Assembly: GCA_900315485.1 (NCBI GenBank)
Contig: OMZI01000003.1
Span: forward strand, 37,226-101,225
Direction: 5' to 3'
DNA: 64,000 nucleotides
Source: an uncultured Eubacteriales bacterium
GTDB taxonomy: Bacteria > Bacillota > Clostridia > Peptostreptococcales > Anaerovoracaceae
The translations under genes were made by a program, and so were the position numbers. Below the pieces are notes generated by a model that was not told the origin of the DNA, ran no database searches, and saw only the letters and a list, made by a program, of their open reading frames with translations. This document shows positions 42,375 through 44,361 of this stretch, piece by piece (the first letter of the stretch is position 1; each line of letters starts with the position of its first letter).

Positions 42375-42863
42375 ATGCCGCTGACCAGGAAGGACATTAC
42401 AGATCTTCTGGATTCGAAAAAGATAAAGTATGAGATCGTTGAACATCAGCCTGTATACACGATAGACGAGATGCTCGAATGCGAGATCCCTCATCTGGAT
42501 CAGATAGCCAAGAACCTATTCATCAGAGATGACAAGAAGAGGAAATACTATCTGATCACATGCCTTGAGGATAAGAAGATCAACCTCAAGGAGTTCAGAA
42601 AAGAGCACGACACGCGCCCGCTGACTTTCGCATCAGAGGATGACCTGATGGCCAAGCTTGGACTCTACCGCGGCGCTGTTACACCTTTCGGCATACTCAA
42701 TAATGAAGAAAAGGATGTCATCGTCTTCCTCGACAAGGACTACGAGAACAAGATCATGGGCATCCATCCGTGCGACAACACAGCGACCGTATTCGTCAAT
42801 ACAAGAGACGTTGTAAAACTGCTGAAGGAGCACGGCAACGAGATCCACTTCATCAAGATGTAA
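42375..42863 (+). CDS. YbaK/ProX-type prolyl-tRNA editing protein
   Basis: This 162-residue protein has the trans-editing domain fold: KYEIVEHQPVYTIDEM at the start, IAKNLFIRDDKKRKYYLITC, and TPFGILNNEEKDVIVFLD. Such proteins hydrolyse mischarged Ala- or Cys-tRNA(Pro). The Lys-bearing AKNLF block is intact. It is co-transcribed with the HerA-like gene and ends at a terminator. Confidence 0.9.
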   Translation: MPLTRKDITDLLDSKKIKYEIVEHQPVYTIDEMLECEIPHLDQIAKNLFIRDDKKRKYYLITCLEDKKINLKEFRKEHDTRPLTFASEDDLMAKLGLYRGAVTPFGILNNEEKDVIVFLDKDYENKIMGIHPCDNTATVFVNTRDVVKLLKEHGNEIHFIKM

Positions 42864-42936
42864 GTGAGCTGCATCAGTTCTGTGATGCCGGTGCAGGCTT
42901 CAGGATCACATCAGAATAACATGCAAAACAATATGA

Positions 42937-42971
42937 GATGCACTCCCGGGCTGCGGGGTGCATCTTTTTTC
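42937..42971 (+). terminator. Terminator after the editing-protein gene
   Basis: GATGCAC...CCC (42937-42947) pairs with GGGGTGCATC (42955-42964), then six T's. Confidence 0.8.
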
Positions 42972-43008: not shown

Positions 43009-43066
43009 AATTCCTATTGACGAAGTAGGAATTAAGGAGTATATTCCTATCTAACAGGTAGGAAAT
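43009..43066 (+). promoter_or_regulatory. cysK promoter with two CymR-like operators
   Basis: TTGACG (43017-43022) and TATATT (43040-43045) are spaced by 17 nt. AATTCCTA...TAGGAATT (43009-43033) covers the -35, and ATTCCTA...TAGGAAAT (43043-43066) covers the -10. The TTCCTA/TAGGAA dyad resembles the box of CymR, the Rrf2-family cysteine repressor of Firmicutes. Confidence 0.75.
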
Positions 43067-43113
43067 AATATTTACAAAAGTTACAGACTGAACGACGGAA
43101 AGGAGGAGCGCAG

Positions 43114-43227
43114 ATGACCAGAACATTCACCGTAACAAACGATCGCTGTTGTTGTATGGGCATGTGTCCGGGTGTCTGTTCGTATGCGGCAGCTGCGGTG
43201 CTTCGATGTCGTCATACAGCAATTTAA
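43114..43227 (+). CDS. Cys-rich leader peptide of cysK
   Basis: A 37-residue peptide with an excellent ribosome site (AAGGAGG, 7 nt spacing). The central part reads DRCCCMGMCPGVC, with Cys at 12, 13, 14, 18 and 22, and a sixth at 32. The first three are consecutive TGT codons. It lies between the cysK promoter and a strong terminator, in the place of a classic attenuator leader. A slow ribosome at the Cys codons when Cys-tRNA is scarce would leave the downstream hairpin region free. It is probably regulatory rather than a functional product. Confidence 0.75.
   Translation: MTRTFTVTNDRCCCMGMCPGVCSYAAAAVLRCRHTAI
43182..43217 (+). promoter_or_regulatory. Candidate antiterminator hairpin in the cysK leader
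   Basis: GTATGCGGCA (43182-43191) pairs with TGTCG-T-CATAC (43207-43217). Its loop contains CGGTGCTTC (43196-43204), which can pair over all nine positions (one G-U) with GAGGCACCG (43307-43315), the 5' arm of the downstream terminator. Confidence 0.6.
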
Positions 43228-43306
43228 GCAGAAGGTCATAACAAGGCACATTTGACCTGATGCAGCAGACAAACACGATACTTTTATACAATCTCCCTTT
43301 ACTACA

Positions 43307-43336
43307 GAGGCACCGGAAAGGTGCCTCACTTTTTTT
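43307..43336 (+). terminator. Leader terminator (attenuator) before cysK
   Basis: GAGGCACC (43307-43314) and GGTGCCTC (43320-43327) with loop GGAAA, then seven T's at 43330-43336. It lies 90 nt before cysK in the same direction, so it must be bypassed for cysK expression. Confidence 0.9.
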
Positions 43337-43425
43337 AGTCAATTACCGGACAACACTGAAACCGGCAAACAATATAACAATTTTCACTATAACCACGGGG
43401 ACAAGAGAAATGGAGGAATGAAACA

Positions 43426-44361
43426 ATGGCAAATATCAGACAGAGCATGACAGAACTTATCGGCGGAACACCAATTCTCCAGCTGAACAGATACAGCGAA
43501 GAAGCAGGGATCACGGGTGCAAACATTCTCGCAAAGCTCGAGTATCTAAATCCTGCAGGATCGGTCAAGGACAGGATCGCACTCAGAATGATCGAAGATG
43601 CAGAGGAAAAGGGCATCATCGGACCGGGAGCTACCATCATCGAGCCGACAAGTGGCAATACGGGTATCGGTCTGGCTGCAGTTGCAACTGCAAGAGGCTA
43701 CAGAGCTATTCTTACACTCCCGGATACCATGAGTGTAGAGCGCAGAACCATGCTGAAGGCATACGGCGCTGAGCTCGTGCTGACCGAAGGGGCAAAGGGA
43801 ATGAAGGGAGCTATAGCCAAGGCTGAGGAGCTGAAAAACGAGATCGAGGGGGCTGTGATCCTCGGACAGTTCGTCAATCCTGCAAACCCTGAAGCTCACT
43901 ACCTGACAACAGGTCCTGAGATCTGGGATCAGACAGACGGAAATGTAGACATCTTCGTTGCAGGCGTAGGAACAGGCGGAACTCTTACAGGCGTAGGCAA
44001 GTTCCTCAAGGAGCAGAACCCGGAAGTCAAGGTGGTCGCAGTAGAGCCGTCGACCAGCCCGGTCCTGTCAAAGGGTGAAGCCGGATCCCATAAGATCCAG
44101 GGCATAGGTGCAGGATTCGTACCTGATACACTCGACACATCTGTATACGATGAAGTTCTTACTATAGATAACGAAGATGCTTTTGCAGAGGGGAAGAGAT
44201 TTGCCGGAGCTGAGGGCATACTCGTAGGTATTTCTTCAGGCGCTGCTCTCAAGGCGGCATCGATACTTGCGGCAAGACCTGAGAACGCAGGAAAGAACAT
44301 CGTAGTCCTGCTGCCTGATTCAGGCGACAGATACCTCTCGACACCGCTGTTTGCAGACTAG
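43426..44361 (+). CDS. cysK: Cysteine synthase A (O-acetylserine sulfhydrylase)
   Basis: This 311-residue PLP enzyme makes cysteine from O-acetylserine and sulfide. [16 protein letters not shown] carries the Schiff-base Lys; [12 protein letters not shown] is the substrate loop; [16 protein letters not shown] binds the PLP phosphate; VGISSGAA is near the ring nitrogen. Length and motifs are normal. Expression appears controlled twice: by CymR-like boxes on the promoter and by a leader-peptide attenuator. GGAGG lies 9 nt before the ATG. No cysE is adjacent. Confidence 0.96.

Follow-up and report, generated by a model that had tools for sequence, protein, structure and literature searches.

How is cysK, the gene for cysteine synthase A, controlled in a clostridial bacterium in which the 562 bases separating it from a YbaK-like gene (42375-42863) hold a short, cysteine-rich reading frame and a transcription terminator? 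The locus lies on a stretch of 64,000 nucleotides from an uncultured Eubacteriales bacterium of the family Anaerovoracaceae (assembly GCA_900315485.1, contig OMZI01000003.1, positions 37,226 to 101,225), hereafter called the window, whose numbering is used throughout. For the cysteine genes of Firmicutes the textbook regulators are T-boxes, riboswitches and the repressor CymR. For this gene it is proposed here, with a probability of roughly 0.85, that the leader is a ribosome-mediated transcription attenuator that would sense charged tRNA-Cys, placed in series with a probable Rrf2-type repression of the promoter.

Architecture of the cysK leader

Between 43010 and 43426 the window contains, in this order, a promoter with two palindromes, a cysteine frame led by a Shine-Dalgarno site, a segment complementary to the terminator, the intrinsic terminator itself and then cysK (Table 1). 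These parts recur before cysK in related genomes, and the complementarities among them would be mutually exclusive. An earlier note on this DNA had described a good promoter, a well-initiated 37-codon frame with three consecutive TGT codons and six Cys in all, a hairpin with a complementary loop and a strong terminator, and had read them as a candidate cysteine-sensing attenuator; all of these features were confirmed, and the coordinates given there proved exact on recheck. The two palindromes, ATTCCTATTGACGAAGTAGGAAT and TTCCTATCTAACAGGTAGGAA, were absent from that note and are added here.

Table 1. Features of the cysK leader region, in window coordinates
Feature	Position	Strand	Basis
Palindrome ATTCCTATTGACGAAGTAGGAAT over the -35 element; putative Rrf2 (CymR/IscR-type) operator 1	43010-43032	.	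Sequence; recurrence in class B
Sigma-70-type promoter, TTGACG-17 nt-TATATT	43017-43045	+	Motif read in the sequence; class B recurrence
Palindrome TTCCTATCTAACAGGTAGGAA over the -10 element/start; putative operator 2	43044-43064	.	Sequence; class A boxes
Shine-Dalgarno site AGGAGG of the leader frame	43101-43106	+	Sequence
Leader peptide frame, 37 codons, six Cys, all TGT	43114-43227	+	Open reading frame; relatives
TGT TGT TGT, proposed stall codons	43147-43155	+	Sequence
Cys-codon stretch UUGUUGUAUG, proposed 1:2 pairing	43149-43158	+	Can pair with CAUACAGCAA (43213-43222)
Hairpin with the antiterminator segment in its loop	43182-43217	+	GTATG (43182-43186) can pair with CATAC (43213-43217)
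Antiterminator segment CGGTGCTTC / CGGUGCUUC	43196-43204	+	Duplex statistics; complementarity
AUACAAUCUCCCU, directly before the terminator	43286-43298	+	UCUCCCU or UUCCCU recurs there in L005-L008
Intrinsic terminator: stem 43307-43327, then U tract to 43336	43307-43336	+	Sequence
cysK, cysteine synthase A (regulated gene)	43426-44361	+	TIGR01139, 437.7 bits (cut-off 350.95)

The frame reads MTRTFTVTNDRCCCMGMCPGVCSYAAAAVLRCRHTAI, with Cys codons at positions 12, 13, 14, 18, 22 and 32. Its ATG stands 7 nt behind AGGAGG and 69 nt beyond the end of the -10 element of the predicted promoter, so that the frame is predicted not to be leaderless. The run TGT-TGT-TGT, ahead of a cysteine synthase, consists of codons for the amino acid that the operon produces. 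Within the window's own genome (G000) a search with the leader peptide found the peptide itself only, unrelated poly-Cys leaders before other genes not being surveyed; other genomes gave six weak matches (E 0.007-0.05).

The loop of the hairpin presents CGGTGCTTC, which pairs with the 5' arm of the terminator, GAGGCACCG (43307-43315), at nine positions including one G-U, as the earlier note had stated. It is the best-scoring partner of the arm within 43050-43299, where two overlapping 9-mers score best, and the energy of the duplex had p = 0.011 against 1000 dinucleotide shuffles. Nine-mers fully pairable with the arm occur seven times in the 128 kb of both window strands, so that 0.011 would be expected in the 193 nt upstream of the arm. 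A further pairing that the earlier note lacked, between the Cys-codon stretch UUGUUGUAUG and CAUACAGCAA, competes with the hairpin that holds the segment. The whole leader is only modestly more stable than its shuffles (z -1.53; of 200 shuffles, 6 were equally or more stable).

From these parts we infer translation of the frame, stalling and a response to cysteine as follows. RNA polymerase would start at the operator-covered promoter, and a ribosome would load on the 37-codon frame. With ample Cys-tRNA the ribosome would pass the Cys codons and cover or bypass the segment, and the terminator would form. With scarce Cys-tRNA it would stall at TGT-TGT-TGT or at later Cys codons, barring the Cys-codon stretch from pairing near the stop codon; CGGUGCUUC, freed in this way, could pair with the emerging 5' arm of the terminator, and polymerase would continue into cysK.

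Cysteine leaders before cysK in related genomes

The genus of the window was sampled with 45 cysK upstream regions from 43 of its 47 genomes, the window included (G011 and G018 gave two each; G002, G026, G027 and G043, which held distant matches only, gave none). Further regions came from other genera of the family (80) and from named records (80). Paralogues (L132-L136) were kept separate, frames in L126 and L128 were dropped for want of a Shine-Dalgarno site, and CC doublets in L034, L082, L100, L101, L198 and L213, considered as leaders, were rejected as indistinguishable from chance.

As we classify them, poly-Cys leaders stand in 28 of the 45 genus regions and fall into three groups by sequence, classes A, B and D. 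Class A, the type of the window, has seven members (L001, which is the window's own locus, L002, L003, L005, L006, L007 and L008): the frame is near-identical in L002 and L003, and related leaders stand in L005-L008, L005 reading C-T-C where the class has CCC. The 19 members of class B share cores such as MCCCLMQSSRARCMAGVLS, and the two of class D (L027, L119) have CC..CC-type runs and a different terminator. In L006 the distance from leader and terminator to cysK exceeds that of the other class A loci by about 200 nt or more, and extra AT-rich sequence lies between. The pyrimidine-rich UCUCCCU/UUCCCU before the terminator is retained in class A despite differing surroundings, and in L006 and L007 it can pair with AAGGGAG within the leader.

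An automatic screen, which looked for frames with a Shine-Dalgarno site and either CC or three Cys in six, gave 22 of 45 genus regions in the sense direction and 3 of 45 in antisense (shuffle mean 1.35, maximum 4/45 over 20 rounds). The sense figure is a low count, since several class B starts escaped the filter and L024 had been taken in the wrong orientation; L024 was counted as leaderless in this screen, and alignment A2 is without it. When the same rule was applied to other residues, Ser came next with 17 of 45, a count to which the SS of class B peptides contributes. Beyond the genus the screen gave 4/80 against 2/80 in antisense (shuffle mean 1.20) in other genera, where only L197 and L211, both with terminators, are claimed, and 8/79 against 2/79 (shuffle mean 1.85) in named records. 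Six of the latter are claimed (L037, L040, L043, L054, L058 and L063, the last without a clear terminator), L043 being the poly-Cys leader at cysK of [Clostridium] aerotolerans DSM 5434.

The leaders are tied to this gene. A core pattern, derived from the class B leaders themselves, occurs once each in 17 of the 47 genus genomes (control pattern, 0), and in 17/17 the cysK match follows shortly downstream of it on the same contig; a single copy at cysK leaves no second copy serving another gene. A CCC core taken from L037, L040 and L043 was found in 5 of 397 genomes of the [Clostridium] aerotolerans family, none of which is also among the genomes drawn from the window's family, with no control matches. 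Two of the five are the source genomes of L040 and L043; among the other three, L230 and L231 lie 157 and 177 nt before cysK, and L229 is without cysK within its 3 kb.

The six Cys codons of the window's leader are all TGT, against 29 TGC and 6 TGT in eight window genes, and over 23 leaders (including 7 of the 19 in class B) the count is 91 TGT to 23 TGC. This bias agrees with rare stall codons, the codon usage being taken from window genes alone, and may also come from the pairing of UGUUGU.

Complementarity between leader and terminator across classes

The complementarity was assessed in 34 leaders by comparing the best leader-terminator duplex with 1000 shuffles. With the 5' arm and loop of the terminator as target, p was ≤0.05 in 26 of 34, 19 of these being class B. 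The leaders are not independent, since class B supplies 19 of them and the members of two pairs, L001/L003 and L015/L018, nearly duplicate each other; L002 (near-identical to L001), L226-L231, and L011, L012, L120 and L063 (without a clear terminator) were omitted. A first version with the 5' arm alone had given p≤0.02 in 13 of 19 leaders, those not significant being L027, L119, L037, L040, L043 and L058; the target was widened to arm plus loop after such a pairing had been noticed in class D, and with this change L006 moved from 0.020 to 0.064. In L027, L119 and L211, from two genera, the class D sequence CAUUAUGnUACCUU after the Cys run is complementary to arm and loop (GGUA(n)CAUAAUG). The terminator script itself matched in 24 of 35 leaders, and direct reading shows a class B hairpin where it missed.

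Within class A the segment varies along with the terminator arm, as GGUGCCUC:GAGGCACC in L006-L008 and GGUGCUUUU:AGAAGCACC in L005; the window's segment GGUGCUUC pairs with GAGGCACC with one G-U. In L008 the segment stands in another reading frame than in the window, which indicates that it is kept as RNA and not as peptide. In class B the RNAalifold consensus is itself the antiterminator, formed by GCUCCCGGGC (columns 48-57) with GCCCGGGAGC (143-152) and enclosing a hairpin around the leader stop codon; shifting the partner of this hairpin by 1-3 columns lowers its pairing from 90% to 26-53%. Counted from the first base of the run's last Cys codon, the first partner of the antiterminator starts about 13 nt downstream, approximately where a ribosome stalled on that codon would have its leading edge. 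The class B Cys codons (columns 32-39) can instead pair with a stretch after the stop codon (85-92), with 99% of cells paired, a pairing analogous to that proposed for the Cys-codon stretch of the window.

Promoter and Rrf2-type regulators

The palindromes of the window have counterparts in both larger classes. Among class B promoters CCTATTGAC...TAGG recurs over the -35 element, and CCTATTGAC with a 17-nt spacer is found in 23 of 24 class B and related loci, L119 being without a match (the script permitted 15-17 nt and tried the longest first). In the class A relatives L004, L005, L007 and L008, CCTACTAAA...TAGG boxes lie just past the -10 element, at the place of operator 2 in the window. 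To call these putative operators CymR-like is to state a resemblance.

Candidate repressors are at hand. An Rrf2 gene adjoins cysK divergently in L011 and L013, as identified with protein models, and by sequence likeness one also stands beside cysK in L012, L021 and L022. The window's genome has two (L115 and L116), of which L116 by eye resembles the divergent regulators of L011 and L013. All four Rrf2 proteins tested passed the superfamily cut-off and none of the four passed an IscR or CymR equivalog cut-off; the two of the window's genome, which is 85.6% complete, scored 108.4 and 83.3 bits with the CymR model NF047409 (cut-off 195). Among solved structures the nearest to the L011 regulator are Rrf2/IscR-type proteins, with CymR also matched. 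Taken together, the boxes and genes suggest that the cysK promoter is probably under repression by a CymR/IscR-like protein of the Rrf2 type, which would bind at the two palindromes.

Evidence for and against the proposed attenuator

Ribosome occupancy was represented by masking a footprint from 18 nt before to 12 nt after the first base of the A site and computing pairing probabilities, a procedure that ignores kinetics and pseudoknots; since the class A segment lies in a hairpin loop, an antiterminator there would be a pseudoknot. Before the terminator is made, a stall at the last codon of the run left the segment more accessible in 15 of 18 leaders of class B (all but L016, L020 and L117) and in two of six of class A (L007 and L008). 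In nascent transcripts that reach just past the 5' arm of the terminator, a stall at a Cys codon brought the antiterminator to peaks of 0.96, 0.81 and 0.80 in L005, L006 and L007, which had 0.00, 0.00 and 0.30 when free of ribosomes and 0.00 with the ribosome at the stop codon. A ribosome placed over the segment gave a terminator probability of 0.80-1.00 in full-length class B RNA, in 18 of 18.

Other results weigh against an attenuator, beginning with the window's own RNA. Its segment has an accessibility of 0.24 free and 0.20 stalled, showing no effect of the stall; its nascent antiterminator is at 0.01 free, 0.00 stalled and 0.55 with the ribosome at the stop codon, which is the wrong way round; and its terminator stays at 0.89 in every ribosome state. 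L003 gave no clear stall effect, and in L008 nascent pairing drops on stalling (0.63 to 0.34 or less) though accessibility rises. The nascent class B antiterminator drops below 0.84 in two cases only, with the ribosome covering the segment (0) and, in L020, with the ribosome at the stop codon. In full-length class B RNA the change from free to stalled lowered the terminator in 13 of 18, left it unchanged in 3 and raised it in 2, and in five of the 18 (L015, L017, L018, L028 and L130) it is at 0.13 or below even without a ribosome, so that termination in cysteine plenty would rest on timing. Masked folding is the weakest link for the window itself; as modelled, it speaks for a switch in many leaders of class B and in three relatives of class A, and not in that of the window.

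The comparison of relatives has its own counterweights. In 17 of the 45 genus regions no clear poly-Cys leader was found: 14 have none, L011 and L012 show a weak leader of the RCRC type, and L120 has a single-Cys frame. One leaderless locus, L004, has a CysK 88% identical to that of the window and a box directly before cysK. The duplex was not significant in eight of the 34 leaders (L006 at 0.064; L027, L119 and L211 at 0.07-0.10; L037, L040, L043 and L058). Covariation in class B is weak, as the antiterminator pairs hardly vary, and that of the enclosed hairpin was not above shuffles; the argument is built on the comparison between classes and on the duplex statistics. The fourth Cys codon in class B is placed where a ribosome stalled on it would cover the segment, the L007 leader departs from the TGT bias (2 TGT, 3 TGC), and operator-like boxes elsewhere in the window's genome (up to 3 mismatches) were not above control, with two 3-mismatch matches besides the cysK site on both strands against two for the control pattern. 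The earlier note had asked for the leader to be sought in related genomes together with base-pair covariation. The first part largely held, in that Cys run, terminator and mostly a complementary segment co-occur, in sequences that differ between leaders; the leaderless regions, the eight leaders and the weak covariation stand on the other side. In L011 and L012 the weak leader has ...RTRCRCMTGNYQE, in L120 the single Cys is the last residue before the stop, and no clear terminator was found in these loci.

Alternative explanations

Control could lie in the promoter alone, with an Rrf2-type repressor on the two palindromes and the frame and terminator as a relic or a constitutive attenuator. 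Boxes similar to those of the window at the leaderless loci L004, L013, L123, L127 and L129 are in keeping with this, as are the Rrf2 genes beside cysK and the two in the window's genome. Against it, Cys runs, segments and terminators are retained jointly in many diverged leaders, with the segment fitting the terminator in different sequences, and such joint retention is not expected of a relic; the explanation is considered improbable. Slightly less probable again is a leader that binds a metabolite or a tRNA, whether a T-box or an unknown riboswitch, with the frame incidental. The long 5' leader with its terminator would suit one, and cysK of Clostridium perfringens is under T-box control (PMC2940859). 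The T-box covariance model matched neither the whole window nor the leader alone, the leader alone gave only weak Rfam matches at chance level, and before cysK no Rfam T-box or riboswitch reached its gathering score in the window and 60 cysK loci, which include the window's own. The gathering-score matches in those 60 loci were a TwoAYGGAY RNA in L038 and one tRNA in L041, both downstream of cysK. Nor is any RNA core recognisably common to the classes. The TwoAYGGAY RNA (RF01731, 86.5 bits; L038:2989-3153) lies 3' of cysK on a Lachnospiraceae contig.

The least probable of the explanations considered makes the frame a functional Cys-rich microprotein, metal- or sulfide-binding, and lets the terminator merely separate cysK. 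Six Cys in 37 residues and a good Shine-Dalgarno site are what such a protein would have. The peptides of the different classes are, however, alike in little but the Cys run, that of the window matched no Pfam or NCBIfam family, and the complementary segment is kept as RNA, as its frame in L008 indicates. The preferred explanation remains an attenuator that would sense charged tRNA-Cys, behind a probably repressed promoter.

Two features upstream of the leader complete the locus. The YbaK-like gene has a likely terminator at 42935-42966. Its product is an aminoacyl-tRNA editing domain protein (PF04073, E 4.7e-25) with a weak match, below cut-off, to the YbaK Cys-tRNA(Pro) deacylase model, and a functional link to Cys-tRNA is possible.

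Relation to known systems

Classical attenuators of the trp and his type combine a leader frame, stall codons and an antiterminator that competes with a terminator. The cysK leader has this structure and, read from its sequence, is one that would work like a classical leader-peptide attenuator. It departs from the trp/his type in that the antiterminator segment of classes A and B lies inside the leader frame and, in class A, in a hairpin loop. A leucine-rich attenuator peptide is reportedly present in Staphylococcus aureus. In bacilli, His leader peptides precede hisS and hisZ instead of a T-box (PMC2965389). Both firmicute examples likewise use leader-peptide attenuation, for other amino acids and genes.

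As the earlier note held, Firmicutes do not usually regulate cysteine genes through a Cys leader peptide; the kind is not unique, because Cys leaders have been described in Actinobacteria and Rhodobacterales (PMC1262725, PMC8632094). Actinobacterial cys/cbs operons have polycysteine frames upstream, and thus likewise a short frame with a run of Cys codons before cysteine genes; for the mycobacterial leaders the same paper reports no conserved terminator hairpin and suggests Rho (PMC1262725). The present leader differs in its phylum, its Shine-Dalgarno-led frame, its intrinsic terminator and its matching antiterminator segment. Mycobacterial polycysteine frames are reportedly called leaderless in the title of Canestrari et al. 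2020. The uORFC-8-2 motif before cysS of Rhodobacterales is a predicted ribosome-mediated Cys attenuator, with tandem Cys codons usually at positions 14-15 and a U run fitting an intrinsic terminator (PMC8632094). It belongs to Alphaproteobacteria and to cysS, not cysK, its first stem contains the Cys codons, and the portion of the account used does not mention a promoter operator (PMC8632094). The likeness to the CymR regulon (PMC3828012, PMC2940859) is that the cysK promoter palindromes may suit an Rrf2 regulator and that Rrf2 genes are present; the difference is that the Rrf2 proteins here fall below the CymR equivalog cut-off and that an attenuator would be added downstream.

The open-access literature searched yielded no account of a Cys leader peptide before cysK in clostridia, and further accounts may exist in subscription papers. 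As far as that literature shows, the gene and lineage would be new for Cys leaders, as would their several sequence classes and a segment inside the frame (classes A and B). A wider reading is put forward tentatively: clostridial cysK may be a two-input gate, an Rrf2 repressor with a Cys-tRNA attenuator in series, that arose several times independently instead of a T-box, in classes A, B and D, the [Clostridium] aerotolerans type and singletons, which follow one logic in RNA sequences unrelated to each other; in class A, the window included, the antiterminator would be a pseudoknot between the leader hairpin loop and the 5' arm of the terminator. If this is true, solutions that sense the ribosome and solutions that sense tRNA take each other's place at a single gene, and the sequence classes within one genus let the change of an attenuator be followed while its logic stays. 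The cysteine status of the cell would then reach cysK through two separate signals.

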